Origin: Lactobacillus sp. LL6 | Lineage (GTDB): Bacteria; Bacillota; Bacilli; Lactobacillales; Lactobacillaceae | Direction: 5' to 3' | Length of the DNA: 64,000 nt | NCBI RefSeq assembly: GCF_007570935.1 | Contig: NZ_VLLR01000002.1 | Span: forward strand, 124,001 to 188,000 | Part shown: positions 47,647-64,000 of the stretch, in pieces | Layout: every line of letters starts with the position of its first letter | Numbering within the stretch: position 1 is the first letter of the stretch | The notes under the pieces: model-generated | What the model was told of the DNA's origin: nothing | Seen by the model: the letters and a program-made list of their open reading frames with translations, nothing else | The model's database searches: none | Position numbers and translations under genes: made by a program

Positions 47647-50600
47647 ATGGTTTCAAAAAATAATCGTACAAAAAGAATGGAAGAGTCGGCAGAACATCAA
47701 GCCCACTTTGGGATTCGTAAATTGTCTGTTGGTGCTGCTTCTGTTCTTTTAAGTACTACTTTATGGTTTACTGCGGGAACTAATATAGCTCACGCTGAGA
47801 CCCAAGATGCTAATGATAACGAGGATAACGCAAAAGCAACTACTGAAAGTAGTCAGAGTGTTAATACTCAACAAGTAAATAAGGTAGTTGTTCAAGCTGA
47901 TAATTCATCTACTAGTCAAACTTCAAATCAACAAGCAAGTAACGACTCAGAAAAAACGAGCGCAGCTCAAGCTACAGGAGAAAATATTAACACTCCTAAA
48001 AGTGAAGTTTCTCAAAACTCAGCTGCTCAAAGCACTTCTAAAACTGACACACAAAAAAATAATGAAGTTTTAACTCAAGATGCTAAGCAAAATACGGAAA
48101 AGCAACAATCTCAAAATGCAACTCAAACTCAAGCTGCTGAAAAGAATGTTGCTAGTGAAATCCATCAAGCTGCTCAAGATGGTAAAAACGTTGAAAAGAC
48201 AACTGATTTAGAATCTTCTGGTAATTTAGGCAAACAAACTGTTTCTCAAAATACCAATGACGCAGATGTTACTAAGAGTGGTCTAAAGGGAACTAATAAC
48301 TCTTCTGAAGTCAAAGAAGAAGCTACTAGTGAAGCTGATTCTATTGCTAAAGCAGCGTTAAAGTCCACTCAAGCTAATTTGAATGTAAGCAAAACTGCTA
48401 ATACTAACTCATCTAAACAAACTGATGCGACTACTACAGATGAGGCAAAAGAATACACTATCAATATTCAAGAAGTAGATGATACTACTGGAGAAGTTTT
48501 AAGAAGCAATAATTATAAAGGGGTTGCTGGTAGCCATAAAGAACAAATTGTATACAACTTCCAAGGCTACAAGTTAATGAATCCGGAAGAACTTCAAAGT
48601 TTAAACCTTACTTCCCTAGGTGGTGGAGCTGGCTATTTAGTTGTTCCTGAGCATGATATTAATATGACTTTGCATTTTGCTAAGTTATCTCCTACAGTGG
48701 TTAAGTTTGTAGATACTGATGGTAACCTTTTAACTACTTATAGTGATTCTTCTAAGTGGTCAACTTCCAAGAGTGCCTATAGTGATACAGATAATGTTTT
48801 AGACTCCAAGTTTTTAGCAAATGCAATTGAAATTCCAGGTTATGAATTAACTGAAGGCTCACCTACATCAATTGAAATGCCAATCAATCAAACTTATAAA
48901 TCAAAAGATGACCCTAATCCAATGGTCATTACTTTTACTTATAAAAAGATTGCAAAGTATGCTCAAGAAGGTCTTCCAGATGGCGGTGGTGCCAATGTTA
49001 CTGGTCATGACTATGGTAGTGATTGGAGCAGTTTACCAGGTGGAGTAAATATCGACTTAGTATATGATACCTATGGTAGCGGAACTAATGACTTTGAAGG
49101 CAGTGTTAAAAAGATGGAAGATAGATATACGAAGCAGGGTTACACCTTCTTAGGTATCTTAAACGACCACAAGAACACTGATAAAATGAACAGAATGGAA
49201 ATTGCTACAGCTGTTCACTTCCTTCCTAACAAATATGTAACTGTTAACTATGTTGATGAAGATGGTAATAAGTTAGATGAATCTGTTGTTTTAGGTTTCA
49301 ATAAAAATAATCCAGATCAAACTAATCAAGGAATTAATCCCAAGGATCACTGGTATCCAGAAGGCGAATGGCAAACTGAAAGAAAATCATTTGATGGTTA
49401 TGTTTTGGATAAAGTTTTAGGGGCAGAAAGTGGTAAGTTTACTAGTTTTGATTACACTACTACTTACGTTTACACTAAAGCAGCTACTGCTAAGATTAAT
49501 TACATTGATGATACTGAAAACAAGACTTTAACTAGTGACACAGTTGATGGCGGTGTTGGTCTTGCAATCGATTATTCAACTAAGGATAAGATTGCTGATT
49601 ATGAAAAGCAAGGTTACATTTTTGTAAGTGATAATTTTACTAATGCAGATGGTCAAAAGTTTAACGAAGATGCTGCAAAAAATGTGTTTGAAGTTCATTT
49701 AAAGCATGGTACTATTCCAGTAACTCCAGATGATCCAAAAACACCGACTGATCCCATTGATCCAAATAATCCAAACAATCCTAAATATCCAACTGGTGTT
49801 TCTAAAGATGATCTAAATAAAGTCATTACAAGAGTTATCAACTATGGAGACGAATACGGTAATTCAGTTAATGGTAGCCCTGAAGGCAAGAGTCAAGAAA
49901 CTCAAACTCTTAGCTTTACTCGCACAGCAATTGTGGATAAGGTAACTGGTGAGCTTCTTGGTTATGATACTGATAATGATGGTGTGGTAAACACTAAGGA
50001 TGCTGATCGTGCATGGACTCCAATTTCAGGTGAATTTTCAGAAGTAAAATCAGCCGATCCTACTAAGCTTGGTTATGCATCAGTTGATAAGCCAGTTGTT
50101 GAAAAGCAAATCGTTTCACCAGTTAATGGTAATTCAACTGTAACTGTAACTTATTATGGTAATCAAAAAGCTGATATTATTTATCGTGATTTAGACAATA
50201 ATAATCAAGTTCTAAATCAAGCTGAAGTATCAGGAACTACTGGTAGCAAAATTAATTACTCAACTGCTGATGAAATTAAGACTTTAACTGATAAAGGATA
50301 TGTCTTAGTAAATGATGGTTTTAATAAAGATGCTGCCTTTGATAAAGTTAAAGATGAAGATGGAAAAGTCTCTCAAGTATTCTATGTTGATTTCCGTCAT
50401 GGTACTACTCCAGTAGACCCTAACCATCCTGATACTAATAATCCTGATTTATCAAAAGACGCACTTGAAAAAGTCATTACTCGAACAGTAAATTATCTGG
50501 ATTCCGCAGATCATAATAATGTGTTGCTTGATCCAGTGACTGACACAGTAACCTTTGCTGCATCTGGTGTGATTGATAAAGTTACTGGAAACTTAGTGAA

Positions 50601-53600
50601 CTTAAATGATGATGGCACTATTAAGAATCAAAATGGTGAACTTACTTGGACCTACCTAACTTCAACTGGTAAGACTGGAAATGGTACTAGCTTTACTTTT
50701 GCTCAAACCCAAGCTCAACCATCAATCAATAAAGACGGTAAAACTTATAACTTCGCAACTACTGATAATGCTGATTACGCAGCTGGAAATGGTGCTGTTA
50801 AGAGTTATGAAGTTAATGCTTTAAATCCAGCTAACCTTACAGTAAATGTTTATTACAATGAAGAAAAAGCACCAGAAGTTGGTCGCTTAGTTGTTAAGTA
50901 TCATGATGATACCGATAATATTGATATTTCTAATATTGGTTTTGATAGTGGTGACCAAGTTGTTGATACAGCTGTTAACTACAATACTGATAACGACTTA
51001 CAAGATTTAATTAAGAAGGGATATGTCTATGTAGCAACTGATGGTGAAATTCCATCTAAGATTGCAGCTGGTTTAGATCAAGTAATTGTTCACGTAAAGC
51101 ATGGTACTACTACTGTGACTCCAGATAATCCTGGCCATCCAGGTGATCCTGTTGATCCATCAAATCCAACAGGTCCTAAATACCCAAGTGGTACAAGTGA
51201 ACAAGATGTTAAGAGAGTTTCTACTCAAACCGTTCACTATGTTGGTGCAGGCGATAAAACTCCAAAAGATGATACTCAAACCTTTACTTTCACTAGAGAA
51301 ATTACATTTGATAATGTAACAGGAAAGATTATTACAACTGGTGATTGGAATGAAAGTAGTCATACCTTTGATAATGTGAATACTCCAGTTGTAGAAAATT
51401 ATCATGCTGATAAAAAGACAGCGGGTAGTTTAGTAGTAACTCCAGATGATTTAGTTAAGGACGTAACTGTTACTTATGCACCAAATGGTCATGTAGTTCC
51501 AGTTGACCCAGAAGGAAATAAAATTCCTAATGTTGATACACCAACTTTCCCAACAGATCCAAGTGATCCAACTAAAGTAGTAACTGTTGAAATTCCAAAT
51601 GTTCCAAATGGTTATGTTCCACTTAACCCAGAAAATAAGCCAGGTACACCAATTAATCCAGATCCAACAGATCCATCTAAAGATGTTAATGTTGTATTTA
51701 CAACTCAAAATACAATTACAGTTGTCTTCCATGATGATACAACTGGTCAAGATTTAACTGGTTATGGTTATGTTTCTGGTGAAGAAAATGTTGGCACACA
51801 AGATGAAAAGCTGTTGCCAAAAACTCAAAGCGATTTGATTACATTAACTAATAGCGGTTATGAATTTGTAAATGTAACTGGCAATGGAAACGTTAGCTAC
51901 AATAATATTTCTGATATTCCAACTATTATAAGTAAAGATGCTAAAAACTATGTAGTTCATATTAAGCATACAATTATTCCGGTAAATCCAACCAATCCAC
52001 TTGATCCAACTAAGCCAGTAAATCCTGAAGATCCAACTAGTCCAAAATATCCAAGCGGTGCAAATGAAAATGATTTGACCAAGACTGTAACTAGAACAGT
52101 AACTTATGTTGGTGCAGGAGAGTCTACACCTGAAGCAGTTAAAGATACTTTAACTTTTACCGCTCACAGCTACTTTGATAAGGTAACAGGTAAATTTGTT
52201 GATAAAGATGGTAAAGAAGTAGACCAAACTAATCCATTAACTTGGACTATTGAAAATGGAAACAGTGATAATGGAAGTTTTGATTTAGTTCCAACTAAGA
52301 CTATTGATGGTTACACTGCAAGTGTTCCAAATGAATATAATGATGGTAATAATAATGTAAAGAAGATTACTGATATTACTCATAATTCTGCAAACATTAA
52401 TGTAACTGTAACTTATACTAAAAATCCTGATCATATTCAACATGCTAGTGTAATTTATCAAGATATTAATGATCCTAGAAATGTAGTCACTCTTCATGTT
52501 GACAAGGACTTAACTGGTAAAGCAGGAGATAAAATTAATTATTCTCCAGAAAGTGTAATTGCTAACTTAACCAAGCAAGGATATGTATTGCTTTCTGATG
52601 GTTTTGGTGAAAATAGAATTTTTGACAATGATGATAAGGAAGATCAAGTATTCTACATCACTTTCAAGCATGGAATTACTACAGTAACTCCAGACAATCC
52701 AGGTCACCCAGGTGATCCAATTGATCCAAATAATCCAGATGGTCCTAAGTATCCAGATGGAACAAGTCTTGATGATTTAAAGAAGACAGGAACTCAAACA
52801 ATCCACTACACAGGAGCTAATAATAAGACTCCAAAGGATAATGTTCAAAGTTTCGATTTCACTAAGAATATTACTTTTGACAATGTAACTGGTGAAATTA
52901 TCGACAGCGGTTCTTGGAATGTTTCAAGTCATGAATTCGGTACAGTTGATACTCCAGTAGTTGACGGTTACCACGCAGACAAGAAGACTGCAGGCGGTAA
53001 GACTGTTACTGTTGATAATCCAGAAGTAGAAGAAACTGTAACTTATGCTGAAAACGGTAAGATTGTTCCAGTTGATCCAGAAGGAAACAAGATTCCAAAT
53101 GTCGACAACCCAACTTACCCAACAGATCCAAGTGATCCAACTAAGGTTGTACCAAACGAACCAGTACCAAATATTCCAGGTTATACTCCAGAAACTCCAA
53201 CAGTAACACCAAATGATCCAGGTAAAGATACTGAAGTGGTTTACACTAAGCCAGATGCTGATAAAGGTGTTGTAAATGTTTATGTTCATGACAACACTAC
53301 TGGTGAAAATCTTGATCAATACGGATACACAACTGGTAATGTAGATGCAGGTACTAAGGTAAATTATGATAAGAATAGTGTAATTACTGAATTAACTAAC
53401 AAGGGCTATAAGGTAGTCAACCCAGATGTAACTATTCCGGGTGAAGTAGCTAAGGGCAGTCAAAATATTGTGATCCACGTAGAGCATAATACAGTTCCAG
53501 TTAACCCAACTAACCCAGGAAAACCTGATGAACCAATCAACCCTAACGATCCAAATGGACCTAAGTGGCCAAGTGATACTGATAAGGACAGTTTAACTAA

Positions 53601-54375
53601 GACTGGTATTCAAACAGTTCACTACACAGGAGCTGGAGACAACACACCAAAAGACAGCGTAACTACAGTTACATTTGAACACCACTTAGTAATTGATAAG
53701 GTAACTGGCAAGGTTGTTAAGGATGAAGGCTGGACACCAGATTCACAAACTTACAACAAGGTTAACACTCCAGTGATTAATGGATACACTGTTGATAAGA
53801 CTTCTGTAGGTGGTGATACAGTTAAGGTAACTGATGACAACATCAACCGTGAATACACTGTAACTTATACTAAGAATACAACTCCAGTAACCCCAACTAC
53901 ACCAGACGATAACAACGATGTTCCAAGTCCACAACCTCATCCACAAGTAACTCCGGATGAACCACAAGAACCTGAAACACCAACCACACCTGTTACTCCA
54001 AGTACTGATGATGACTTACAACCAAAGACTGATGAGACAGTTAAGCCTCATGAACAAGATAACGAGGAAAAACCAGAAACTGTCAAGCCTCATGGTGAAA
54101 AAGAAAACAAATCAGAAACAGTTCGTCCTCACTCACAAAGTGAAAAGACCAATACTGTTAAGCCACATAGCGCTAAAGTAACTAAGACTTCAACTACAGT
54201 AGCTCAAAATAATAAGTCGGCTGTAACTACTGCTACTGTAAATAATTCAAAGACCACTCTTCCACAAACCGGTGAGGACAATAATGAAGAAGCTTCTGCA
54301 GCAATCTTAGGAGCAGCTGCCGCAGGAATCGGAATGATTGGACTTGCAGGTGTGAAGAAGCGTAAGAGATCTTAA
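47647..54375 (+). CDS. LPXTG-anchored mucus-binding protein (Mub/MucBP repeats)
   Basis: A 2,242-residue wall-anchored adhesin. GGAGG lies before ATG 47647. Layout: YSIRK-type signal (HFGIRKLSVGAASVLL, cleavage near residue 51); a Gln/Ser/Thr/Lys-rich head to about 260; MucBP-type segments (DDTTGEVLRSNNYKG, ATAKINYIDDTENKTL); and six Muc_B2-type units starting near residues 717, 936, 1183, 1472, 1705 and 1978, several introduced by Pro-Asp linkers such as PGHPGDPVDPSNP. Near the C-terminus are four copies of a T-V-K/R-P-H motif, then LPQTGED near residue 2205, a membrane span and KKRKRS. The protein is predicted to bind mucin glycans. Two units about 1.57 kb apart are nearly identical at DNA level. 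Confidence 0.94.
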   Translation: MVSKNNRTKRMEESAEHQAHFGIRKLSVGAASVLLSTTLWFTAGTNIAHAETQDANDNEDNAKATTESSQSVNTQQVNKVVVQADNSSTSQTSNQQASNDSEKTSAAQATGENINTPKSEVSQNSAAQSTSKTDTQKNNEVLTQDAKQNTEKQQSQNATQTQAAEKNVASEIHQAAQDGKNVEKTTDLESSGNLGKQTVSQNTNDADVTKSGLKGTNNSSEVKEEATSEADSIAKAALKSTQANLNVSKTANTNSSKQTDATTTDEAKEYTINIQEVDDTTGEVLRSNNYKGVAGSHKEQIVYNFQGYKLMNPEELQSLNLTSLGGGAGYLVVPEHDINMTLHFAKLSPTVVKFVDTDGNLLTTYSDSSKWSTSKSAYSDTDNVLDSKFLANAIEIPGYELTEGSPTSIEMPINQTYKSKDDPNPMVITFTYKKIAKYAQEGLPDGGGANVTGHDYGSDWSSLPGGVNIDLVYDTYGSGTNDFEGSVKKMEDRYTKQGYTFLGILNDHKNTDKMNRMEIATAVHFLPNKYVTVNYVDEDGNKLDESVVLGFNKNNPDQTNQGINPKDHWYPEGEWQTERKSFDGYVLDKVLGAESGKFTSFDYTTTYVYTKAATAKINYIDDTENKTLTSDTVDGGVGLAIDYSTKDKIADYEKQGYIFVSDNFTNADGQKFNEDAAKNVFEVHLKHGTIPVTPDDPKTPTDPIDPNNPNNPKYPTGVSKDDLNKVITRVINYGDEYGNSVNGSPEGKSQETQTLSFTRTAIVDKVTGELLGYDTDNDGVVNTKDADRAWTPISGEFSEVKSADPTKLGYASVDKPVVEKQIVSPVNGNSTVTVTYYGNQKADIIYRDLDNNNQVLNQAEVSGTTGSKINYSTADEIKTLTDKGYVLVNDGFNKDAAFDKVKDEDGKVSQVFYVDFRHGTTPVDPNHPDTNNPDLSKDALEKVITRTVNYLDSADHNNVLLDPVTDTVTFAASGVIDKVTGNLVNLNDDGTIKNQNGELTWTYLTSTGKTGNGTSFTFAQTQAQPSINKDGKTYNFATTDNADYAAGNGAVKSYEVNALNPANLTVNVYYNEEKAPEVGRLVVKYHDDTDNIDISNIGFDSGDQVVDTAVNYNTDNDLQDLIKKGYVYVATDGEIPSKIAAGLDQVIVHVKHGTTTVTPDNPGHPGDPVDPSNPTGPKYPSGTSEQDVKRVSTQTVHYVGAGDKTPKDDTQTFTFTREITFDNVTGKIITTGDWNESSHTFDNVNTPVVENYHADKKTAGSLVVTPDDLVKDVTVTYAPNGHVVPVDPEGNKIPNVDTPTFPTDPSDPTKVVTVEIPNVPNGYVPLNPENKPGTPINPDPTDPSKDVNVVFTTQNTITVVFHDDTTGQDLTGYGYVSGEENVGTQDEKLLPKTQSDLITLTNSGYEFVNVTGNGNVSYNNISDIPTIISKDAKNYVVHIKHTIIPVNPTNPLDPTKPVNPEDPTSPKYPSGANENDLTKTVTRTVTYVGAGESTPEAVKDTLTFTAHSYFDKVTGKFVDKDGKEVDQTNPLTWTIENGNSDNGSFDLVPTKTIDGYTASVPNEYNDGNNNVKKITDITHNSANINVTVTYTKNPDHIQHASVIYQDINDPRNVVTLHVDKDLTGKAGDKINYSPESVIANLTKQGYVLLSDGFGENRIFDNDDKEDQVFYITFKHGITTVTPDNPGHPGDPIDPNNPDGPKYPDGTSLDDLKKTGTQTIHYTGANNKTPKDNVQSFDFTKNITFDNVTGEIIDSGSWNVSSHEFGTVDTPVVDGYHADKKTAGGKTVTVDNPEVEETVTYAENGKIVPVDPEGNKIPNVDNPTYPTDPSDPTKVVPNEPVPNIPGYTPETPTVTPNDPGKDTEVVYTKPDADKGVVNVYVHDNTTGENLDQYGYTTGNVDAGTKVNYDKNSVITELTNKGYKVVNPDVTIPGEVAKGSQNIVIHVEHNTVPVNPTNPGKPDEPINPNDPNGPKWPSDTDKDSLTKTGIQTVHYTGAGDNTPKDSVTTVTFEHHLVIDKVTGKVVKDEGWTPDSQTYNKVNTPVINGYTVDKTSVGGDTVKVTDDNINREYTVTYTKNTTPVTPTTPDDNNDVPSPQPHPQVTPDEPQEPETPTTPVTPSTDDDLQPKTDETVKPHEQDNEEKPETVKPHGEKENKSETVRPHSQSEKTNTVKPHSAKVTKTSTTVAQNNKSAVTTATVNNSKTTLPQTGEDNNEEASAAILGAAAAGIGMIGLAGVKKRKRS

Positions 54376-54388
54376 TCTCTAAGTATGA

Positions 54389-54425
54389 AATACATGATTT
54401 CTCAATAGAAATCATGTATTTTTTT
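54389..54425 (+). terminator. Terminator of the Mub gene
   Basis: AATACATGATTTC (54389-54401) pairs perfectly with 54408-54420 and is followed by T5. Confidence 0.88.
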
Positions 54426-54477
54426 GCTTTAAAGATGTTAAAATTAAATCATAAATATAATTTTGAGGTACTTGATT

Positions 54478-55077
54478 ATGAGAAAGTTTGTTATTGCATT
54501 ATTTACTTTTTTAATTTTTATTTTCATTGAGCCATATGGTAAGCAAGTCTTTGCATCAACCTCTGACTCAGTAAAAGTGATTAAGAAAACTAAATATCAG
54601 CCTTATGCAGATCCAAGTGATATGCGCAAGATGAGTGGAAATTATTGGAGAAAATCCAGCGAAACGAAGACTAAATATCCTAATCTTAAGAAGATAAAAA
54701 ACTTAAATTTGCGAGTATCTATTTATGGAAATAGAACCTATATTCGTTCTGGTAAAAAGGTGGTTTACACCATGTATTCTTCTGCTGGTAGCATTATTAA
54801 TGGTAAAAGTTTAACGCCAACTGGAACTTATTATACCAATAATTATCACCCTTATCGTTTTTCAGAAGCTTATTATCCCGTAGGATGGATTGGTCAATTG
54901 TATCTTTTCCATACTGTACCTACTAAACCTTGGAAGAAGCCATATATTCTTTCTGAAGCACGTAAATTAGGACGTAAGCCAAGCAGTCATGGTTGTATTA
55001 GATTATCAGTTAGTGATGCAAAATGGCTTCAAAAGCATGTTCCTTATGGTACAAAGGTGATTATTAAATATAAATAA
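54478..55077 (+). CDS. L,D-transpeptidase (YkuD domain), secreted
   Basis: A 199-residue exported enzyme. The signal/anchor is residues 3-20 (FVIALFTFLIFIFIEP). The YkuD domain follows, with YTMYSSAGSI, LTPTGTYY and the catalytic block SSHGCIRLSVSDAKWL, where Cys attacks the peptidoglycan stem peptide. Such enzymes make 3-3 cross-links or attach proteins to peptidoglycan. GAGG sits nine bases before ATG 54478; a TTG at 54463 in the same frame is less likely. The location between two surface-related genes fits an envelope role. A terminator (arms around 55083-55092 and 55101-55110) follows. Confidence 0.9.
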   Translation: MRKFVIALFTFLIFIFIEPYGKQVFASTSDSVKVIKKTKYQPYADPSDMRKMSGNYWRKSSETKTKYPNLKKIKNLNLRVSIYGNRTYIRSGKKVVYTMYSSAGSIINGKSLTPTGTYYTNNYHPYRFSEAYYPVGWIGQLYLFHTVPTKPWKKPYILSEARKLGRKPSSHGCIRLSVSDAKWLQKHVPYGTKVIIKYK

Positions 55078-55082
55078 TTAAA

Positions 55083-55114
55083 AAACACTGTGATTATAAC
55101 CGCAGTGTTTTTGT
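55083..55114 (+). terminator. Terminator of the L,D-transpeptidase gene
   Basis: AAACACTGTG pairs with CGCAGTGTTT (one mismatch), followed by TTG and TT. Confidence 0.75.
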
Positions 55115-55149
55115 TATAATGTTGTCAAAAGCTTAAGGAGTAGAAATTT

Positions 55150-55599
55150 ATGGATTTTAAAAATTTAGAATATACAGATGCTCGTAAAAGGTTAGTGCAG
55201 TTGTATATTGTGGGAGAAGGATTGCAACTAATTGGAGCAGTGATTGCACTTAATTCTATAATTATTTCTAAATTAATTGTAGGGATAGGAATTAGTATAT
55301 TTATATTAGGTACAATTATTTTTGCAATAGCGTTTTTCATTAGAAGCAGTAAAAGCTATCGAAAATTAAAAAAAGAAGATAATGAAGTTGAAAGTTTTAA
55401 AGATATAACTAAAGAATTTGGAACTTTGATGACATTATTGGGCTTAGCATTTATTCTGGCTATAGTTATTGGAGCAATCTATTTTGCTTATCAGTGGACG
55501 CATTCTTGGATTAAGGTTGTATTATTTCTTTTAGCTTTTTCATTTGTAGATGATTTAAAAGAATACTTTGCTGGTTCAGAAGTAGAAGATGAATTATAG
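55150..55599 (+). CDS. Hypothetical membrane protein, 149 residues
   Basis: I do not recognise the family. It has an N-terminal amphipathic stretch, two hydrophobic segments (about 16-36 and 40-62), a charged loop (SYRKLKKEDNEVESFKD), and two more hydrophobic segments (about 95-115 and 120-137), so four membrane spans are likely. AAGGAG lies 9 bases upstream of the ATG. Function unknown; monocistronic, ended by the hairpin at 55640-55675. Confidence 0.75.
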   Translation: MDFKNLEYTDARKRLVQLYIVGEGLQLIGAVIALNSIIISKLIVGIGISIFILGTIIFAIAFFIRSSKSYRKLKKEDNEVESFKDITKEFGTLMTLLGLAFILAIVIGAIYFAYQWTHSWIKVVLFLLAFSFVDDLKEYFAGSEVEDEL

Positions 55600-55622
55600 T
55601 ATTATTCTGTTCAAGCCAATGT

Positions 55623-55675
55623 TAGAAAAATTATTTTTGAAGCAAGATTTCTAGATATGGATTTCTTGCTTTTTT
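55623..55675 (+). repeat. Repeat E, copy 1 (terminator hairpin)
   Basis: A 53-base segment with AAGCAAGA (55640-55647) pairing with TCTTGCTT (55664-55671) and a T run. Nearly the same sequence occurs at 59019-59076 (GAAGCAAGATTTCTA, then ATATGG and TTCTTGCTTTTTT). It ends the preceding gene and forms the left part of a duplicated unit (with repeat A) around the Rgg/peptidase block. Confidence 0.8.
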
Positions 55676-55690
55676 CTACACAAATTTAAG

Positions 55691-55702
55691 TGTCTTAAGA
55701 CA
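55691..55702. promoter_or_regulatory. 12-bp palindrome, possible operator
   Basis: TGTCTTAAGACA is a perfect palindrome between repeats E and A, copy 1. It is absent from copy 2 at the corresponding place. Possible regulator-binding site; no direct support. Confidence 0.25.
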
Positions 55703-55716
55703 TCTAATTGAAAAAA

Positions 55717-55850
55717 GCAAATAAGTAGTAATTCAACGACAGGAGAGGACTAAGTATTTAGTATGAATATGAGCAAATATGTAGTAGTTGAGCTTTATTC
55801 AAGTGGGAGTGAAATGGAAAAATTGGATAATTAAAAACTGAGCTACCTAT
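55717..55850 (+). repeat. Repeat A, copy 1 (degenerate leader)
   Basis: A 134-base segment similar to 59217-59359, starting GCAAATAAGTAGTAATTCAACG and ending GAGCTACCTAT in both. This copy lacks the TATAAT found in copy 2 but keeps an open mini-frame (MNMSKYVVVELYSSGSEMEK and three more residues) after AGGAGAGG; copy 2 has an early TAG there. Copy 2 is the leader of a secreted-protein gene, so this copy is probably a remnant of such a leader, here fused to a doc fragment. Confidence 0.75.
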
Positions 55851-55917
55851 CAGAAGCTGAATGCTTAATTACATTTTGATTAATATTGATTAAATCTGTT
55901 TTAGTGAGATGCTTCAT
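55851..55917 (-). pseudogene. Remnant of the doc toxin gene (first ~22 codons)
   Basis: These 67 bases match 63387-63453, the 5' end of the Doc toxin gene, with about three differences; read on the minus strand they begin MKHLTKTDLININQNVIKHS. The rest of doc and the antitoxin gene are missing: the fragment joins directly to GAAAAGTATCCTGATTCTA (55919-55937), which in the intact locus lies upstream of the antitoxin (63760-63778). It is a deletion relic, not a working gene. Confidence 0.85.
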
Positions 55918-56092
55918 TGAAAAGTATCCTGATTCTAGATGTATCAAAACTCAAATAAAAAGAGTCTAATCAATTACCGAATATATAGAATTCGGCTAAA
56001 GAATATTTGCAGATTGGCAGATTTTAATTTTTTGTGTAAGATTGTTTGTATAATAGTTTCCTAATAAGGTAAGGTGCATTGGAAAGTAAATT

Positions 56093-56870
56093 ATGACAAC
56101 AATTGGAAAAGAACTGAAAAAAATTAGAATAACCTACGGCTTAACTCAACGTAAAATGAGTGCTGGCGTTTTGAAGCCGACATACTATGGCATAATTGAG
56201 CGAGGAGACCGCCAAATTAGTATTAAAGACTTACTTGAAATACTTAAGCGAAATGGTATTTCTATCTATGAATTCTTTAGTGTATTCGATAAAAAGGCAG
56301 TAAAGCAATATCGCCTTAAAAATCGACTTCAAATGGCGTGCTTGACTAAAGATAAAATTGAAATTGATGACTTATTGAAACTTGACGAAATTAAAGCTAA
56401 TGAATTACAAACTCTACAGTTGAAGCTAGTTAAAGCAGAAATTTTGGGGGGTAAATGCCTTACCTATATGCCTGCAAAAGCACATTCGTAGTGAGCTATT
56501 GAGTGCCGATGAGTGGAATTACGATAATTTATGGGAGCTACTAATTACGATGCCACTCTTTGACCAAGAAGAAGTAGCAACTTTGATAGCATCTGTCTTA
56601 AAGCGAGAGACTTGGGATAATTTAACAATTGAACTTTTTGCTGCGGTACTAGTTGCTTACACTGGTCGTTTATATAGTGAAGGAAACTTTACTGAAGCTA
56701 AAAAAATCATCAAAATTATTAAAGAATTGCCTACTAAGTCAACCTTGATGTTATACAAGGTCTTGGCGATTTATTACTCTGACTTAATTGATAAAAATTC
56801 ACATTCTAACAAAATTGCGTGTTTATTAAAATCAATAAAATATTCTAAGTTTTCGAGGGTAAATAAATGA
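56093..56870 (+). pseudogene. Rgg/MutR-family regulator, frameshifted in a G run
   Basis: The N-terminal helix-turn-helix (IGKELKKIRITYGLTQRKMS, then YGIIERGDRQISIKDLLEIL) is typical of Rgg/GadR/MutR regulators, which respond to short peptides. The frame stops at 56491; the rest of the regulator continues in another frame (through HIRSELLSADEWNYDN) to 56870. Removing one G from the G6 run at 56446-56451 restores one frame of about 258 residues. So the gene is one base out of frame in a homopolymer: mutation, phase variation or sequencing error. Its end overlaps the start of the second Rgg gene (ATGA), so translation coupling is disturbed in the current sequence. Confidence 0.83.
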
Positions 56871-57649
56871 AGATAGGTAAGAAATTTAAGCAGTTGCGGA
56901 AAGAATTAGGTCTAACTCAAAAGAACATGATAGCTGAAGTGATGAAAAGGGAACGCTATTCACGACTTGAAAATGAAAGAAACTCTGTTAGAGCTGATGA
57001 AGTGCTGAACTTATTAAAGCTTCATGATGTATCTATAGTAAAATTCTTGGAGGATGGAGAACAAGTTAATGTACATGAACAGCGTCAAGATCAGGTGATA
57101 AATGCTTACTTTGAGCGTGATATAATGAAGTTAAAAAAGTTGAAAGATAGCAAAGAACTAAATAATCCGCATGAGAAGTTTGCTGTTGCAATATTAATTG
57201 CTAAGCTAAAAGATCAGGATGACAAATTCGCGCCGGATTTTAAGCGTAAGATGAAGCGTGTCTTTCTTGAGATGAAAGATTTGAACAAGAATATCTTGTG
57301 GTTACTCTTAGTGTGTATGAATTTGTATGAGTTTGATGAATTAGAATCTTTGATGGCAGTCATCTTTAGTAGATATAGGAAAGCTGCAAACTTAGATAGA
57401 CGGACATATGAGTTAATGGCAAGTATTTGTGTAAGTTATTTGAAGATTTGTAGTCAGGAAGATGAAGATGGTGTTGAATTTAATCATGCTGTACAAGTGC
57501 TAGAGAGTGTGCCTAGCTTTGGGGATGTGTTCTTACAGAAGTTAGTTGGACAGTATTTCACCTATAAGAGAAATGGACAAGATGAATGTGCTGAGTTCGT
57601 GAAAAATCTAGTTACGGAATGTGGATATTTGAATTATTTAGAAATGTAG
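56867..57649 (+). CDS. Rgg/MutR-family transcriptional regulator
   Basis: A 260-residue intact Rgg-like regulator. The helix-turn-helix is at residues 5-60 (GKKFKQLRKELGLTQKNM, then RYSRLENERNSVRADEVLNLL), followed by a helical, TPR-like C-terminal domain that in this family binds an imported peptide pheromone. It is the second of two tandem Rgg genes and overlaps the first by 4 bases. A terminator (57649-57673) follows. The genes next to it (membrane peptidase, secreted proteins) are plausible targets. No SHP-like hydrophobic pheromone gene was found by eye. Confidence 0.87.
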   Translation: MKIGKKFKQLRKELGLTQKNMIAEVMKRERYSRLENERNSVRADEVLNLLKLHDVSIVKFLEDGEQVNVHEQRQDQVINAYFERDIMKLKKLKDSKELNNPHEKFAVAILIAKLKDQDDKFAPDFKRKMKRVFLEMKDLNKNILWLLLVCMNLYEFDELESLMAVIFSRYRKAANLDRRTYELMASICVSYLKICSQEDEDGVEFNHAVQVLESVPSFGDVFLQKLVGQYFTYKRNGQDECAEFVKNLVTECGYLNYLEM

Positions 57650-57673
57650 AGCAGGGCGACCTGCTCTTTTTTT
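57649..57673 (+). terminator. Terminator of the Rgg pair
   Basis: GAGCAGG (57649-57655) and CCTGCTC (57660-57666) form a GC-rich stem followed by T7. It overlaps the stop codon of the second Rgg gene. Confidence 0.88.
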
Positions 57674-57796
57674 GATGTGAATAACGATGAAAAATTAAAA
57701 TGCTAAAAAGTTGTGCAAATGTGTTTGGTTTTAGCGACAGGATGAGTGGGGTGAGGGATGATATGTATGATTATTTTTTAGAAGAGAGTGATATTT

Positions 57797-58984
57797 ATGA
57801 ATGCTTTGTGGTGTGGAATTTGGACTATTGTGTTAATAATGTTTGGAATTATGGTATGGGTTGGTCCTAAGGCACATAAACAAGATATAAGTTTAGAAGA
57901 ACAAGGGTTATGGGTAAAATTAATTAAGGATGAGACTAAAACGCTTCTAGTGACGCTTGTATTTACTATAATAACTTATAAACCTAAATCAAATACAATT
58001 TGTCAATTAAATCCAATAGGTGTGATATTTTTGATTGTGTTATGTGCATTTATGATTGGCTGGACTGATTATTGGGAGATTCGTCGTTTGAGATTAACGG
58101 AAAAAATAGAGCATCAAAATCAACGTCTAAAACAAAATGGTAAGCCACTTTGTGGATTATATGCATTTTTAAATGGGGTATTTTCACAAGAAGATATATC
58201 ACAAAAAGAAGAACAGATTGATAAAGTAGTAGATAAAATATGGTGGCTGTCATTAGATAAAGAAATTAAGTTAAAAGATAAAGAAATGATAGCAAAAAGT
58301 GACTTGTCTTTTTCATTAGTAGGAGAATTTTTTGCTTCCAATGCTATTGAGGACTTTTTTGATTATCGTGAAAATGAAAGCAACAATCAAGATAGAAACT
58401 TTGATAAAAATCATTTGAATATTTTAAAAGAATTACATTCTGTAGACGCTTCAATAGAAGACTATACAATAAAAGCTATTGAGAATGAGAAGAAATTTAG
58501 AGATGCATATCATAATATAAAAGATGAAAATACTTTTTTTATAATTCCTTATAATGTAGGAACAAATGTACACTGGATTTGTTTAAAATATATTCATAAC
58601 AAAGGAAAATATTATATTTTAAATAGTGCAAAAAATACATCTAATGAATATCGCAGCCTCAGATTTAAAGTACCACTTAAAAAATTGAGAACTTTAAATC
58701 AAGTTGTAAGTGCGTGGAATTATGTAAGAGAGGCTAAGAGCAAAAATGAAAAATTCAATGAATTTGATTTTGGTAAATGGGTTAAGAGTTGTGATGGGTG
58801 TAAGGCTGAAGAAAAGTATACAGATATGTTAGAAGATAATAATGAAGAAAATAATAGTTTAACTGAAAGATTTAAAGACATAAAGGACTCACATATTAAA
58901 TATGAGTATGCTTATAATGAACAATGTGGAGACAAAGTATATAGCAGGTTTGATATTTTAAAAGTAACAGTTAAGCGTCGTTAA
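57797..58984 (+). CDS. Membrane-anchored papain-like cysteine peptidase (predicted)
   Basis: A 395-residue protein without a family I can name firmly. Residues 1-22, about 46-60 and 75-95 are hydrophobic (probably three membrane spans); the basic stretch EIRRLRLTEK after the last suggests the C-terminal domain faces the cytoplasm. That domain has the order expected for a papain/C39-type cysteine peptidase: Cys in GKPLCGLYAFLNGVF, His in NVGTNVHWICLKYI, and Asn in GKYYILNSAKN. A GTG at 57788 is also possible, but GAGAG before ATG 57797 suits the latter. It sits between the Rgg regulators and two secreted-protein genes. It may cleave peptides or signals in this locus; inference. Confidence 0.6.
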   Translation: MNALWCGIWTIVLIMFGIMVWVGPKAHKQDISLEEQGLWVKLIKDETKTLLVTLVFTIITYKPKSNTICQLNPIGVIFLIVLCAFMIGWTDYWEIRRLRLTEKIEHQNQRLKQNGKPLCGLYAFLNGVFSQEDISQKEEQIDKVVDKIWWLSLDKEIKLKDKEMIAKSDLSFSLVGEFFASNAIEDFFDYRENESNNQDRNFDKNHLNILKELHSVDASIEDYTIKAIENEKKFRDAYHNIKDENTFFIIPYNVGTNVHWICLKYIHNKGKYYILNSAKNTSNEYRSLRFKVPLKKLRTLNQVVSAWNYVREAKSKNEKFNEFDFGKWVKSCDGCKAEEKYTDMLEDNNEENNSLTERFKDIKDSHIKYEYAYNEQCGDKVYSRFDILKVTVKRR

Positions 58985-59018
58985 GAAGTATACTAAATAT
59001 CTTAGTATAGAAGGTCAG

Positions 59019-59076
59019 TAGAAAAAATTATTTTTTGAAGCAAGATTTCTAAATATGGAATTCTTGCTTTTTTTAG
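59019..59076 (+). repeat. Repeat E, copy 2 (terminator hairpin)
   Basis: Second copy of the hairpin of 55623-55675: AAGCAAGA and TCTTGCTT arms with a T7 end, here serving as terminator of the cysteine peptidase gene. Between it and repeat A (59077-59216) is AT-rich sequence without a gene. Confidence 0.8.
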
Positions 59077-59216
59077 TTTTCATATGCTTTGTAATTGCTA
59101 CAAGGTCATGTAATTATATTCAATTTATATTTTATGTATAGTGTCTCATTACAGATCAAACTTAGAAACGATAATTAGATTAAAAATGAAAATACAAGTG
59201 CATCAAAAATATTTGT

Positions 59217-59359
59217 GCAAATAAGTAGTAATTCAACGACAAGATATAATTAAGCTTTTAGTATAAACATGAGCAAATAGGTAGTAGCTGAATTTTATTT
59301 AAGTGGGAGTGAAATGGAAAAATTGGATAACTAAATTAATTAGAAACTGAGCTACCTAT
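59217..59359 (+). repeat. Repeat A, copy 2 (leader of the secreted matrixin-like gene)
   Basis: A 143-base segment related to 55717-55850, with a 9-base insertion near its end. It has TATAAT at 59244-59249 but no clear -35, as often seen in activator-dependent promoters, and ends about 80 bases before the start of the secreted protein at 59440. AGGTAG-TAGCTGA and the later GAGCTACCT can pair, so the leader may fold. Both copies keep GGGAGTGAAATGGAAAAATT, an SD plus ATG of a six-codon frame. Confidence 0.7.
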
Positions 59360-59439
59360 AAGAACACGGCAAACCACAAACTAAGCTTGATGTTTCTCAA
59401 GCTAAGTTAACTTTATTCAATTGAAAGGAATCAAAGAAA

Positions 59440-60354
59440 ATGAACAATAAAACGATTACTAAAATGTTAAAGAAAACCGCAACAGTAGCGATGCTAACTT
59501 TTGCAACCGCAGCACCGCTATCAATGACAGCGCAACATGCAAGTGCAGCTACTTACACCGCATCTAAGTATTTTCCAGGTGAATCGGCTGATACTGATAA
59601 TGAGTATAGTGATGAAGAAGGTTCTTATTTCCGTAACTTCAAGCATAGAAGTGCTAATCTATATGTTAAAGATAAAAAGCTAAAGAAAATTTATCAAAAA
59701 GCTGCTAAAGCTTGGGCACCTGTTTTTAAATTTAAATTTGTAAATTCACCTAAGCATGCTAATTTCAATTCTTCTAAATATGCTAATGTCATTATATTGA
59801 AAGATGGTGGTCGTAAGGGAAATTTTGTAAGTGTTAATAAATTACCACTTTATGCTGGTTCAATGAAAAATCTTAAACAAATGCTTAAGGATTTTCCATC
59901 TATGCGTAAAATGAGTTGGTATGGTGCCTATGCTATGGGTAAAATCGTTAACTATGATAAATGGAAAGCTAACAATAAGAAGCTTATTGCTGGAAAGCCT
60001 GGTGCGTTAATGCCGCAACATGGTAATGCAGCTCAAGTTGGAATGTGGATTCCTTCTACTTCTGATGCTAAAAAACATTCATGGAATCATTATATTACTG
60101 TAGGAACTGGAACTAGAGGATTAAGTCAAAAACAACAACTTGGTAATGCCACTGAAACTTTAGGTAAAATTATTGGTGCTGGCGGAGACGTTAATCCAAT
60201 TCATGACAACGATGAGATTGTCAATGATGATAATTCATCAGGATACTATACATATAAAGTAACCCAATCGGATTTAGACCATGTTGATTGGATTTATGCG
60301 CATCCATGGAATGGTAGCAATGTATTTTGGGATAATAGAACTTTATTGGGATAA
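59440..60354 (+). CDS. Secreted matrixin-like protein lacking HExxH
   Basis: A 304-residue exported protein with a signal peptide ending AQHASAA (cleavage near residue 37). The mature part reads like a matrixin/metzincin fold: IYQKAAKAWAPVFKFKFVNS resembles the opening helix and strand, and YTYKVTQSDLDHVDWIYAHPW the final helix. The zinc-site HExxHxxGxxH is replaced by GNATETLGKIIGAGGDVNP, so it is probably not a zinc protease of the usual kind. AAAGGA precedes the ATG. It may be a binding module or a dead enzyme. The family reading is by pattern only; it could be an unrelated secreted protein. Confidence 0.6.
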   Translation: MNNKTITKMLKKTATVAMLTFATAAPLSMTAQHASAATYTASKYFPGESADTDNEYSDEEGSYFRNFKHRSANLYVKDKKLKKIYQKAAKAWAPVFKFKFVNSPKHANFNSSKYANVIILKDGGRKGNFVSVNKLPLYAGSMKNLKQMLKDFPSMRKMSWYGAYAMGKIVNYDKWKANNKKLIAGKPGALMPQHGNAAQVGMWIPSTSDAKKHSWNHYITVGTGTRGLSQKQQLGNATETLGKIIGAGGDVNPIHDNDEIVNDDNSSGYYTYKVTQSDLDHVDWIYAHPWNGSNVFWDNRTLLG

Positions 60355-60444
60355 GTTACTATTGACATCGATGGTATTTTAAAATAAGTTAAATTTTGAA
60401 AATGACGCTAAAAATGTATATTTACCCAAAAACAGATAAATAAT

Positions 60445-60693
60445 ATGTTAAATTTGTTGATTCTATTAATTAGTTGTATAATTGTATTTTTTCTCAAAAC
60501 ATTTGATATCAAACGAGAATTTGATGAAGATGACATCGACTTAACATTATTAGATTCATTGAAAATATTATTTTTAGTAACTGTTAGTCTTTACCAAATT
60601 TACATAAATGATGAATTTAAATCAGACATCAAATACGAAAAAAGTAAACTTAATAAAATATTAGTATTTTTACGTGAACTATCGAATATATAA
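60445..60693 (+). CDS. Small membrane protein, 82 residues (uncertain)
   Basis: An 82-codon frame with a hydrophobic N-terminus (residues 2-18) and a second hydrophobic stretch (about 39-52), joined by an acidic loop (REFDEDDIDLTLLD). No clear ribosome binding site lies before the ATG. It sits between two secreted-protein genes. I cannot name a function; it may be real because of its composition, but coding status is unsure. Confidence 0.35.
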   Translation: MLNLLILLISCIIVFFLKTFDIKREFDEDDIDLTLLDSLKILFLVTVSLYQIYINDEFKSDIKYEKSKLNKILVFLRELSNI

Positions 60694-60737
60694 CATTAAA
60701 TTGATAAGTAAACTCATACTTTAAAAGACTATTTAAG

Positions 60738-60766
60738 ATTAATTTCTTTAATAGTCTTTTTTTTTT
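60738..60766 (+). terminator. Possible terminator upstream of the secreted adhesin-like gene
   Basis: AAAAGACTATTTAAG (60722-60736) is partly complementary to CTTTAATAGTCTTTTTTT (60748-60768), giving a stem followed by a T run. Serves the 60445-60693 frame. Confidence 0.6.
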
Positions 60767-60849
60767 ATTTCAAAAATCATTTTCAAATAATGTAAGTATA
60801 CTAATTACAATCCTATCAAATTTGATATTATAGAAAGGTTGTAATTCAT

Positions 60850-62625
60850 GTGAAAAGTAAAAAACACTTTCAAAAATGGATGTTTTGTGCAACTGCACTT
60901 TTAATGGTCGCACCATTAGCAAGCCAATCACAACATGTTCATGCTAGTATGAATGATGTTGCTAGACGACCTGGTATAACAAGTACATACGGTATTGCAC
61001 CTGATGCTAAGACTGGCAAAGGTGGTCTTAATAGGTCATCAGGCAAAATGGGAGTTGTATTACGTTATAATGAACATGGTCATGGTACTGCTAATGCTAA
61101 TTACATTCACAAACATAAATTATCAGGCTTTTTAGTACGAACTAACAAAGTAATCCATGGTCGACCATTTGGACCAACTAAGTCTAAATTTAAAGTTAGT
61201 ATGGAAGGTGACAAAGGTCACAGGATTCCTTGGGTAGTTTATATGTATCCAAAAGAGTCCGAAGCTGGTAAAGTCGGAATGTATTATAAAGACGCTTTAT
61301 TCTATTATCCAAATAGTAAAAAAGGCAGACGCCTTACTTTAGACGCTCGATTATTTTGGAATGGATCTTATCGTCCTAATGGAATAGGTGCACATAATAG
61401 TTTACACTTTAGCACTAGAAACATTTCAATCAAGGAACCTTATCAAGGTGCAGCTAATTTTACGTTGAAACTTTATCATAACGGTAAACCGTTTAAAGCA
61501 ATCAAAACGCAAATTATGCAAACGGATATTGACTATAAACAAGGTTTGATTTTTGATCCACCACAATATTTAATTTATGACAAATCCACTGCATTAAACG
61601 CTGGATATATTGAGTCTTGGAATACTAATGTTCCTGGTAAAATAAAAGTTTTTGGTGATCAAGGTACACACCACGGTAAACAAGGTACTGTTTATCCTGA
61701 ACAAAAACAAGGACAGATTTCTTATGTACCTAGAAATCCGACTAATTCGTTTAATGTAACATTTGTTCACAGTTATGAATCTATTCCATTGAATTATCAA
61801 AGTCATAGATTTGCTAGTCCTAGTGGTACATCAACAGGCTATGATCCAGACAAATTACAGACATTACCTGTTGATTATGATACGAAAAAATATTATCAGA
61901 CTACGCAACAACTTTCAGGTGGGCAAGCTGACTACTTCGGTTTTGAATTTGACAAAGGGAAAACAAACAGTACTTATAATGTTCCAGTAAATAAACTGGT
62001 TAATACTAAAGATAATCACTTTAAAAAAGTTAAACAAAGTAGTCCTTTAACTGTTAAAGATAACCAAAAGATTTACTTTGACATTCATACACAGCTCCAA
62101 GGTCCATCTAGTGCATATGTTAAAGAAGATAATAGTGATGAAAATTATAATGGATTACCGCTTAAAGATGCTTTAAAAGATAAAAGTGACCCAAACCTTG
62201 GTAAAGCTGGACTTACTGATGCTGGTAAAAATAAACAGCGCTTAGTGTTAAAAGATTCACTTGACCCAAGTCTTGAATTAGCAGGCGACCCTAAAATCGT
62301 TTATGCTGAAAATTGGAATGATACAACTCTTAAAGGTAAAAGACGTGATGCCAGCAAATACTTCTACGTTCATCATGCCAAAGACAAACATGGTCGAACT
62401 GTAGTTGATGCAGTATTAAAACCTGATGCCGCAAAAGCCAAATCTGACGCTTGGTGGAAGGATTATCATTTAATTATTCCCGTTAAATTAAAAAAGGGTG
62501 CGCAACCAGCTCATGGCAGTTATAGTGGTGGCTGGACTCTGATTCATAATAAAGCTCTTATAAATGACCACGGCGGAGACGATGGCGGTAACGAAATGAC
62601 TATAGATAAAATACATCGAGAATGA
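60850..62625 (+). CDS. Secreted adhesin-like protein
   Basis: A 591-residue exported protein, starting with GTG at 60850 (AAAGG upstream); the overlapping ATG at 60848 is followed by TGA in its own frame. The signal peptide ends QHVHAS (cleavage near residue 33). No LPXTG, lipobox or membrane anchor is present, so it is released or bound non-covalently. The C-terminal ~190 residues (IYFDIHTQLQGPSSAYVKED, then LVLKDSLDPSLELAGD, and WTLIHNKALIND) look like the isopeptide-forming or antigen I/II-type domains found in Gram-positive surface proteins. Its 3' end occurs again at 63797-64000. Family uncertain. Confidence 0.7.
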   Translation: MKSKKHFQKWMFCATALLMVAPLASQSQHVHASMNDVARRPGITSTYGIAPDAKTGKGGLNRSSGKMGVVLRYNEHGHGTANANYIHKHKLSGFLVRTNKVIHGRPFGPTKSKFKVSMEGDKGHRIPWVVYMYPKESEAGKVGMYYKDALFYYPNSKKGRRLTLDARLFWNGSYRPNGIGAHNSLHFSTRNISIKEPYQGAANFTLKLYHNGKPFKAIKTQIMQTDIDYKQGLIFDPPQYLIYDKSTALNAGYIESWNTNVPGKIKVFGDQGTHHGKQGTVYPEQKQGQISYVPRNPTNSFNVTFVHSYESIPLNYQSHRFASPSGTSTGYDPDKLQTLPVDYDTKKYYQTTQQLSGGQADYFGFEFDKGKTNSTYNVPVNKLVNTKDNHFKKVKQSSPLTVKDNQKIYFDIHTQLQGPSSAYVKEDNSDENYNGLPLKDALKDKSDPNLGKAGLTDAGKNKQRLVLKDSLDPSLELAGDPKIVYAENWNDTTLKGKRRDASKYFYVHHAKDKHGRTVVDAVLKPDAAKAKSDAWWKDYHLIIPVKLKKGAQPAHGSYSGGWTLIHNKALINDHGGDDGGNEMTIDKIHRE

Positions 62626-62705
62626 ATTCCCGATGTATTTCATTTTGTAGTATCTTTTTCTTGTAAACAATTTTGAAAGCTAAGTATTTGCTTTAGTCGG
62701 TGAAC

Positions 62706-63035
62706 TTAGCTTTCTTCTTCTAATAGTGCTTCATATAAGTTCATAGTCGAAACCATCTTTGCAATTTCCTCTTTTGATAACTGCAAGTTTTGTCTATGCA
62801 CACTCATCTTATCTGTAAATGTTTCATAATAATAAACAGGTGACTTCGTCATTACAGCTGCATAATAACTATCCATATCACCAACTATTTTCAGCTTAAC
62901 GCCTAGTTTTCTAACTTCAACTAAAGGTAAGCTTTCATGGTAATTCAACTTTCGCCAAGCTAAATATTCTACTCGTTTACTGTTTTTAATTTCTTTACTG
63001 GGAACAAATCTTTGATAATCATAAGTTTCCTTAGT
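62706..63035 (-). pseudogene. Unrecognised gene fragment downstream of doc
   Basis: An open frame of about 109 codons on the minus strand, starting directly after a TAG at 63036-63038 and lacking a proper start; the first possible start is a TTG at 62948 without a ribosome binding site. The encoded piece is charged, ending SKEEIAKMVSTMNLYEALLE. It is 22 bases after the doc stop codon in the same direction. I cannot name the family; it looks like the C-terminal remnant of a longer gene. Confidence 0.45.
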
Positions 63036-63057
63036 CTACTTGACTAGTGGTATACAA

Positions 63058-63453
63058 CTATTTTTGCTGACTATGAACTTGCAACCAATCAGCAACAAAC
63101 TTCATAGTTTTATCATCATCTGGATTATTAGTTACCGTTAAAATGAAATCTAAGCTTTCTTTTCTTGGCAAATTTAGTTCATAACCATTAATTTTTAAAA
63201 AGAATGCTGTTGAAATTAAAGCTGTTCTTTTGTTGCCATCGTTAAATATATGCTTTTTAGTAATCTTTTGCAGGATAAATGCAGCTTTAAGCCAAATGGT
63301 AGGATAAAGTTCACGTCCAAAAAGAAATTGCATAGGCTGCTTAGATACAATATCTAGTCCTTCAGAATATTGAATACCAAAATTATCAGAAGCTGAATGC
63401 TTAATTACATTTTGATTAATATGGATTAAGTCTGTTTTAGTGAGATACTTCAT
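63058..63453 (-). CDS. doc: Doc/Fic-family toxin
   Basis: A 131-residue Doc toxin. The Fic active-site loop is HIFNDGNKRTAL, matching the Doc form H-x-F-x-[D/N]-G-N-K-R; in Doc this loop phosphorylates elongation factor Tu and halts translation. The length is that of a lone Doc domain. The ATG overlaps the stop of the upstream antitoxin gene by one base. Its first 67 bases are duplicated at 55851-55917. It appears intact. Confidence 0.93.
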   Translation of the reverse strand: MKYLTKTDLIHINQNVIKHSASDNFGIQYSEGLDIVSKQPMQFLFGRELYPTIWLKAAFILQKITKKHIFNDGNKRTALISTAFFLKINGYELNLPRKESLDFILTVTNNPDDDKTMKFVADWLQVHSQQK

Positions 63454-63701
63454 TATTTAGTTTCTAAATCTTTCATTAACTCACTATTTTTAGCATAAAA
63501 ATTGTCAATAAAATTATCTAATTCAGGGTGAACAGCTTCTAACTTCGAAAATGTAATAGTATTACCATCTGCACTAACCTTTTTTTCAAAGACAGTATTA
63601 TTATCAGCATGTAATAATTTTCGGTCTTCTTTAGTAAGTCTTAAAGCATAGGAATTTCCAGCTTTAAACATTTTTGTTTTTTCTAATGTATTTTCTGCCA
63701 T
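63453..63701 (-). CDS. AbrB-like antitoxin partner of Doc
   Basis: An 82-residue protein. ATG 63701 follows AAAGGAAG; the longer frame to 63839 is spurious. The core FKAGNSYALRLTKEDRKLL resembles an AbrB/MazE/VapB-type swapped hairpin (K-x-GNS-x-x-x-R-L/P), and the C-terminal helix (PELDNFIDNFYAKNSELMKD) would bind the toxin. Canonical Doc is neutralised by Phd, a different fold, so this is a mixed pairing. It precedes and overlaps doc, the normal antitoxin-first order. Confidence 0.82.
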   Translation of the reverse strand: MAENTLEKTKMFKAGNSYALRLTKEDRKLLHADNNTVFEKKVSADGNTITFSKLEAVHPELDNFIDNFYAKNSELMKDLETK

Positions 63702-63796
63702 GTTATTACTTCCTTTCATTATGTAATTACATTTTATACTATAATTATTGAAATACCAAGAAAAGTATCCTGATTCTATACGGTAAGAACAGTAAA

Positions 63797-64000
63797 GGTC
63801 AAACTGTAGTTGATGCAGTATTAAAACCTGATGCCGCAAAAGCCAAATCTGACGCTTGGTGGAAGGATTATCATTTAATCATTCCCGTTAAATTAAAAAA
63901 AGGTGCGCAACCAGCTCATGGCAGTTACACTAGTGGCTGGACCATGATTCATAATAAAGCTCTTATAAATGACCATGGCGGAGACGATGGCGACGACCAA
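63797..64000 (+). pseudogene. Second copy of the 3' part of the secreted adhesin-like gene (cut by window end)
   Basis: Almost identical to 62396-62588, with differences such as an extra ACT (HGSYTSGW instead of HGSYSGGW) and GDDQ in place of GGNE. The similarity starts abruptly after GAAAAGTATCCTGATTCTA (63760-63778), and there is no start codon or signal peptide before it. So this is the tail of a truncated second gene copy, or part of a rearranged paralogue continuing beyond the window. Confidence 0.8.

Follow-up and report, generated by a model that had tools for sequence, protein, structure and literature searches.

Among the streptococcal Rgg/RRNPP regulators, two paralogues such as Rgg2 and Rgg3, with their short hydrophobic peptides (SHPs), act as a pair. 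RopB, also an Rgg, is encoded next to speB in Streptococcus pyogenes, and the known outputs of streptococcal Rggs are a secreted protease, bacteriocin, and competence. Here we describe a locus in a 64 000-nucleotide stretch of Lactobacillus sp. LL6 DNA (the window, G000:C3:124001-188000; genome of 2.07 Mb in three contigs), in which an Rgg pair adjoins the gene of a membrane-anchored putative cysteine peptidase. The two regulators come from two clades, rgg1 is broken, and the pair and the peptidase gene are neighbors again in L. rodentium, a species of the same genus. Our preferred reading, with a probability of about 0.45, is that the peptidase gene is under the control of this B/A pair, of which only the A member is left here, and that its product acts as an inducible effector facing the cytoplasm. 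An earlier note, made from the sequence of this DNA alone, had read the locus as one regulated exoprotein system. The link between regulator and peptidase recurs in L. rodentium, but the link to the exoproteins fared poorly, as described below.

The regulators had been described as tandem Rggs. Helix-turn-helix (HTH) regulators do begin at 56093 and 56867, but the first is not intact, since rgg1 (56093-56870, + strand) consists of two open reading frames (ORFs) in differing frames, an N-terminal HTH part at 56093-56491 and a C-terminal part at 56499-56870. The XRE-type HTH is above the HTH_3 cut-off of 23 bits both in the rgg1 N part (E 3e-6, 27.6 bits) and in the intact rgg2 (56867-57649, + strand; E 7e-6, 26.4 bits). 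The C-terminal domains score below their cut-offs, with 18.6 bits for rgg1 against Rgg_C (E 0.0016, cut-off 27) and 19.1 bits for rgg2 against RGG_Cterm (E 8e-4, cut-off 36.9).

Trees place both rgg2 and the rgg1 fragments among the Rggs of the genus. In the tree of 48 Rgg proteins (200 aa or longer), taken from 22 fetched stretches of which the LL6 genome itself supplied three, rgg2 lies inside a 12-row clade, A (99/98), and a second 12-row clade, B (98/97), adjoins it in the midpoint-rooted drawing. The rgg1 fragments were treed separately, with less than half of the columns filled for either and with the N fragment on a long branch. The N fragment falls in a supported 13-row set (99/96) and the C fragment in another (100/97), and the nearest rows are all of clade B. 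The profile scores show a clear preference of the C fragment for B (88 bits, with 56 for A and 52 for other Rggs) and a modest one of the N fragment (89 bits for B, 81 for other Rggs, and 74 for A).

A B copy adjoins 13 of the 14 A copies, across 12 Lactobacillus genomes; as rgg2 similarity was the basis for choosing the loci, this count measures A/B pairing and not frequency. Profile scores identified two of these A copies, of which that in L033 is broken and that in L038 sits at a contig end; the fourteenth, in L051, begins 390 bases from the end of its contig. In two cases, the window and L046, the adjoining B copy is broken. Because rgg2 and rgg1 belong to different clades that are paired in 12 genomes, the "tandem Rgg", as judged from its sequence relationships, is an old, conserved A/B heteropair rather than a local duplication.

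What might the pair respond to? Its members may sense a peptide, as other Rggs do, with C-terminal family scores that are below the curated cut-offs. A scan of 55600-62700 for a cognate hydrophobic peptide gene (ORFs of 14-50 aa with a ribosome-site-like hexamer) gave five starts, all of them within or antisense to other genes, and the same scan found no SHP-like gene near the pair. These lactobacilli have many Rgg arrays, with as many as 16 rgg2-like matches per genome. In the arrays of L033, L034, L037, and L039, several Rgg genes are split into adjoining ORFs like rgg1, from either frequent decay or frameshifts of draft assembly. A further Rgg cluster in the LL6 genome (L044, C2:658001-677900), with one Rgg split, holds a 1135-aa secreted protein of the BLAST cluster that contains SEC10, a GDPD-family protein and, by eye, two small toxin-antitoxin-like gene pairs.

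The gene at 57797-58984 (+ strand) encodes a 395-aa protein, which had been called a membrane papain-like peptidase. The ORF and the hydrophobic segments (residues 4-22 and 68-86, an N-terminal membrane anchor) are there; the papain/C39-type fold of the C-terminal domain is probable, as judged from a model of low confidence. The earlier note had suggested this structure prediction. The mean predicted local distance difference test (pLDDT) score is 44.5 and Foldseek returned nothing at E ≤ 0.001, but among the 50 matches listed, 28 align solely to the C-terminal domain, and 27 of these belong to the papain superfamily, a class assigned partly by title.

A relative in L. rodentium was found by BLASTP (1e-21), with 32% identity across residues 100-263. 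In these two sequences, Cys119 (codon 58151-58153) and His259 (58571-58573) are identical, and Asn276 (58622-58624) is opposite D by eye. The family is extremely rare, occurring in 2 of 397 Lactobacillaceae genomes, that of LL6 included; a contig scan using the window sequence alone found no relative. The window protein matches no curated peptidase profile in Pfam at E up to 5, and the L. rodentium relative matches Peptidase_C12 below the cut-off of 27 (E 0.03, 14.5 bits). A papain fold, catalytic activity, the cytoplasmic side, and any target of the peptidase are inferred. In the PDB, the best sequence matches of the peptidase lie over its membrane anchor and are to receptor helices (E 0.057 for the sequence alone and 0.0024 with a two-row profile); they were judged to be compositional. 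Gain of the anchor by fusion with a separate 214-aa membrane protein of L. rodentium was also rejected, as the two have no similarity.

In L. rodentium (L027, minus strand), the order of transcription begins with a 1177-aa surface protein of the YSIRK, SEC10/PgrA kind (E 2.4e-43), after which come a 301-aa protein, the relative of the peptidase, a 244-aa and the 214-aa membrane protein, and three Rggs, the first of clade A and the second of clade B. The relative, of 224 aa, is 2 kb from the A/B pair, and the longest form of its ORF shares 32 nt with the 301-aa gene. All three rgg2-like matches of the L. rodentium genome fall in this cluster. If genes were placed evenly, the chance of finding the peptidase within about 2 kb of the Rgg cluster would be about 0.4%. 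The Rgg-peptidase neighborhood therefore recurs once, in a second species. A search for the same gene order in other lactobacilli, another check named in the earlier note, thus found the relative beside an A/B pair, but without the anchor, with neighbors that differ from those in the window, and with no relatives of the secreted proteins there.

How are rgg2 and the peptidase gene connected? Directly 3' of rgg2 is an intrinsic-terminator-like site (57648-57673, + strand; 8-bp stem, consensus match), from a scan that gave 6 such sites with 3.8 expected in 9.6 kb, so the two genes are probably not one simple operon. The start of the peptidase gene beyond this site fits regulation in trans rather than in an operon. 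In the mechanism that we propose, the core is the clade-B/clade-A pair adjoining the gene of a membrane-anchored cysteine peptidase, with its papain-fold domain facing the cytoplasm. The pair, from which only the A member remains because rgg1 is broken, would switch the peptidase gene in response to a peptide, either imported or internal, and the enzyme would then cut a cytoplasmic or membrane-associated target. Regulation by the Rggs and a peptide signal are likewise inferred.

A leader-like promoter before the peptidase gene was considered and rejected. The pattern GCAAATNNGTN5TTN3CGACARGA is exact at three places, but it was drawn after viewing them, and unbiased tests fail, with 1319/2000 and 511/2000 shuffles scoring as high. 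In a second scan, 9 of the 14 listed diagonals were unrelated places with scores of 15-20, compared with 15 at the peptidase gene. Searching the LL6 genome with the pattern gave, besides the three sites, two matches with 2 mismatches, and a reversed control pattern gave one match.

From 54463, the locus comprises genes for a YkuD L,D-transpeptidase and a 149-aa membrane protein, broken rgg1, rgg2, the terminator-like site, and the peptidase gene. Another terminator-type hairpin and a leader follow, and then the genes of two secreted proteins, of 304 and 591 aa, with an 82-aa ORF between them. A minus-strand Fic-type module comes next, and last the 3' remnant of a further copy of the 591-aa gene, which extends past the window end. 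All genes in 54463-62625 are on one strand. Immediately upstream is a 2242-aa repeat adhesin (47647-54375) with a YSIRK-like signal and an LPQTG end, by eye. The 82-aa ORF (60445-60693), between the two secreted-protein genes, has two hydrophobic segments and no family match above cut-off. A mobile origin was rejected, since 55600-64000 has no DNA match in plasmids, the peptidase has no protein match in plasmids or phages, and the peptidase, the 304-aa, and the 591-aa protein have none in viral contigs. Stretches fetched from other species, which surround seven relatives of GH31 and the closest one of YkuD, matched no further gene of the locus; their only other matches were to the large adhesins (40070 and 47647).

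The earlier note placed a degenerate leader before the Rgg pair, like that before the first secreted gene. There is indeed a copy at 55717-55835 (+ strand), 87% identical over 119 nt to the leader at 59217-59335 (+ strand), upstream of the 304-aa gene, but the argument built on it fails. Between this copy and rgg1 is the scar of a decayed Fic/Doc-type module (55848-55937, minus strand), and rgg1 starts about 155 bases beyond this scar. The 71-nt Fic start of the scar (55848-55918, 96% identical to 63384-63454) runs straight into 19 nt that match 63760-63778 exactly. Because this scar separates leader copy 1 from rgg1, the copy reads as a relic and not as evidence for an rgg1 promoter; more simply, it would be what recombination left of an exoprotein gene start that had been duplicated. 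The duplicated block (55626-55855 and 59024-59364) also includes a terminator-type hairpin with a T run, 3' of the 149-aa membrane protein gene (55639-55675, + strand; fold z -4.65), which has a 90% copy at 59024-59073. The hairpin of that copy (59037-59073, + strand; fold z -4.18) is 3' of the peptidase gene.

The intact Fic module (63058-63716) is flanked by two 95% copies of an adhesin 3' end. It consists, on the minus strand, of a Fic/Doc family gene of toxin-antitoxin type (63058-63453; Fic E 2.4e-13) and a small ORF touching its start (63453-63716), which is probably the antitoxin by position. The product of the latter has no Pfam match and is presumably AbrB/MazE-like. Beyond it, the remnant of another adhesin gene (63797-63992, + strand) is 95% identical to 62392-62587, at the 3' end of the 591-aa gene, with a 77% protein match to residues 502-583 in open frame.

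Each leader copy contains two GCAAATANGTAGTARYTSA boxes, at 55717 and 55773 and at 59217 and 59273. These are four in the window with 0.68 expected, for a pattern derived from these same sites. The direct repeat, GCAAATAAGTAGTAATTCA / GCAAATATGTAGTAGTTGA in copy 1, has a spacing of 56 bases in both copies and is reached by 3/300 and 13/300 shuffles. It could be a candidate regulator site, for an Rgg or for another protein. Among 60 genomes, the leader was found only as the two LL6 copies, together with a 44-base match in G014 (E 8e-4) that was judged to be chance. A structured RNA or riboswitch was rejected, as an Rfam search of 54400-64000 (E up to 1) gave no match and the fold z values of the copies are 0.60 and 0.19. 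A 7-bp hairpin at 59384-59403, before the 304-aa gene, scored as a minus-strand terminator-like site.

The protein of 304 aa (59440-60354, + strand) had been described as secreted and matrixin-like without the zinc motif. It has a signal-peptide-like N terminus and no HExxHxxGxxH motif, but the matrixin likeness is weak, at 16.8 bits and over residues 21-109 only, ahead of the active site. This score exceeds all 200 shuffles (best 7.1). It also stands first in a set of 586 protein entries, three of which are the 304-aa protein itself, with the next score at 9.5. The profile was made from 19 HExxH-selected sequences, 18 of the genus and one from another family of the order; L087, which has a stop, was excluded, and L104 had no fitting ORF. 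The protein has no Pfam match, a PF00413 search of the LL6 genome found another matrixin gene and not 59440-60354, and the fold model is too poor to use (pLDDT 37). "Matrixin-like" is thus a weak lead.

Likewise, the secreted adhesin-like protein is borne out as a 591-aa ORF (60850-62625, + strand) with a signal-peptide-like N terminus, but its adhesin likeness is a sub-threshold match. Its only NCBIfam match is the isopeptide-domain family TIGR04226 (E 0.1, 13.4 bits, cut-off 30), and an LPxTG sorting signal is absent from its sequence. Neither secreted protein has relatives in 59 related genomes, plasmids, or viral contigs; wider genome sets were not searched. Both genes look like separate, much-recombined passengers of the neighboring adhesin and toxin-antitoxin island, and not like needed parts of the Rgg-peptidase system.

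The reading of the locus as one exoprotein system would have the Rggs drive the leader promoters, with both secreted proteins as output and the peptidase aiding export or maturation. It draws on the leader with paired boxes common to the upstream regions of the 304-aa gene and the Rgg pair, on the single strand of the genes, and on the other Rgg loci, 8 of 22 of which contain a member of the BLAST cluster of the L. rodentium SEC10/PgrA surface protein; the SEC10 domain was scanned in that member only, and the short L039 member matches an S-layer-type domain only. However, the toxin-antitoxin scar cuts leader copy 1 off from rgg1, terminator-type sites divide the units, and the secreted genes are orphans among the 59 genomes. 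Furthermore, in 13 loci with A or B Rggs, chosen by rgg2 similarity and scored with a crude predictor of our own, 12/67 neighbors of these Rggs are signal-peptide genes, compared with 48/353 elsewhere, which is no significant enrichment (p = 0.23), although 8 of the 13 have at least one among the nearest neighbors. We consider this reading unlikely. It is quite doubtful, too, that these are chance neighbors, lying between adhesin genes at a hot spot of recombination that is in decay, where nothing works together any more. The broken rgg1, the duplicated leader, terminator, and adhesin end, the Fic scar, and the absence of further matching locus genes around the GH31 and YkuD relatives would all suit such decay, but the rgg2 and peptidase reading frames are intact and the pair-peptidase neighborhood is found again in a second species amid different neighbors.

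The peptidase could also be conflict cargo, a self-poisoning or anti-phage effector in Rgg-pair islands, comparable to the nuclease-like and AbiH genes of such islands in L. rodentium and a second species. The 301-aa protein (L027:13150-14055), whose gene the L. rodentium peptidase ORF overlaps, is related (3e-16) to a 204-aa protein of the G005 Rgg island (L046:12145-12759), and neither has an evident signal peptide. The 204-aa protein weakly matches Endonuclease_NS (E 0.007, 16.4 bits, cut-off 23). The same island has an AbiH-family gene (L046 7690-9056; E 2.7e-8, above cut-off), which carries stops in its upstream part and is thereby apparently broken, and membrane proteins accompany both islands. 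Against this, the 301-aa protein itself has no Endonuclease_NS match, and its BLAST match omits the part with the likely catalytic His. PADLOC gave no match for 9 of 10 proteins (three from the window, four from L. rodentium, and three from G005); for the three from the window, namely the peptidase, rgg2, and the 304-aa protein, this holds up to E 1. The tenth, the L. rodentium 244-aa membrane protein, gave a weak CARF_TM match (E 0.0036). Only two species are involved, and no nuclease was recognized among the window proteins scanned. Such a role is improbable on this evidence. A broader version is a long shot, namely that Lactobacillus has an as yet undescribed class of conflict modules switched by peptides, in which the old two-clade Rgg pair would arm exchangeable intracellular effectors (the membrane-tethered papain-fold peptidase, Endonuclease_NS-like nucleases, and AbiH) and a quorum or foreign-peptide signal would trigger attack in the cytoplasm. 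Control of a cytoplasm-facing peptidase by the Rgg pair stays our preferred reading.

In the literature, judged by titles and abstract openings, we met no paper on tandem Rgg pairs beside a peptidase in lactobacilli, which is not proof of absence in print. The main text of PMC12445099 makes no mention of lactobacilli; PMC6565748 bears on RopB. Being present in 12 genomes, the B/A pair offers a starting point for comparing the Rgg arrays that lactobacilli carry. In several species, LL6 included, large exoprotein genes are found close to such arrays, as SEC10/PgrA surface proteins, whereas SEC10/PgrA is absent from the window locus, and its secreted proteins are unrelated orphans. Unlike the C39 peptidase domains of peptide exporters (PCAT1, ComA), the window peptidase has no ABC transporter in its locus and no Pfam C39 match, and C39 is tied with many other papain-fold proteins. 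Like the streptococcal Rgg2/Rgg3, the window regulators are a paralogue pair with an HTH and a putative Rgg-type C-terminal domain that scores below the family cut-offs, but here members of two clades adjoin each other in 12 genomes, the window copy of one of them is broken, and the scan around the pair gave no SHP-like gene. SpeB is secreted, whereas the window peptidase has a membrane anchor with its domain predicted inside, and no common sequence family was detected; in both cases, an Rgg-type regulator gene is beside the gene of a papain-fold cysteine peptidase, the fold being predicted here. Should the peptidase prove to be under the control of the Rgg B/A pair, Lactobacillus would have a peptide-gated intracellular protease, a use of Rggs unlike the known streptococcal outputs.

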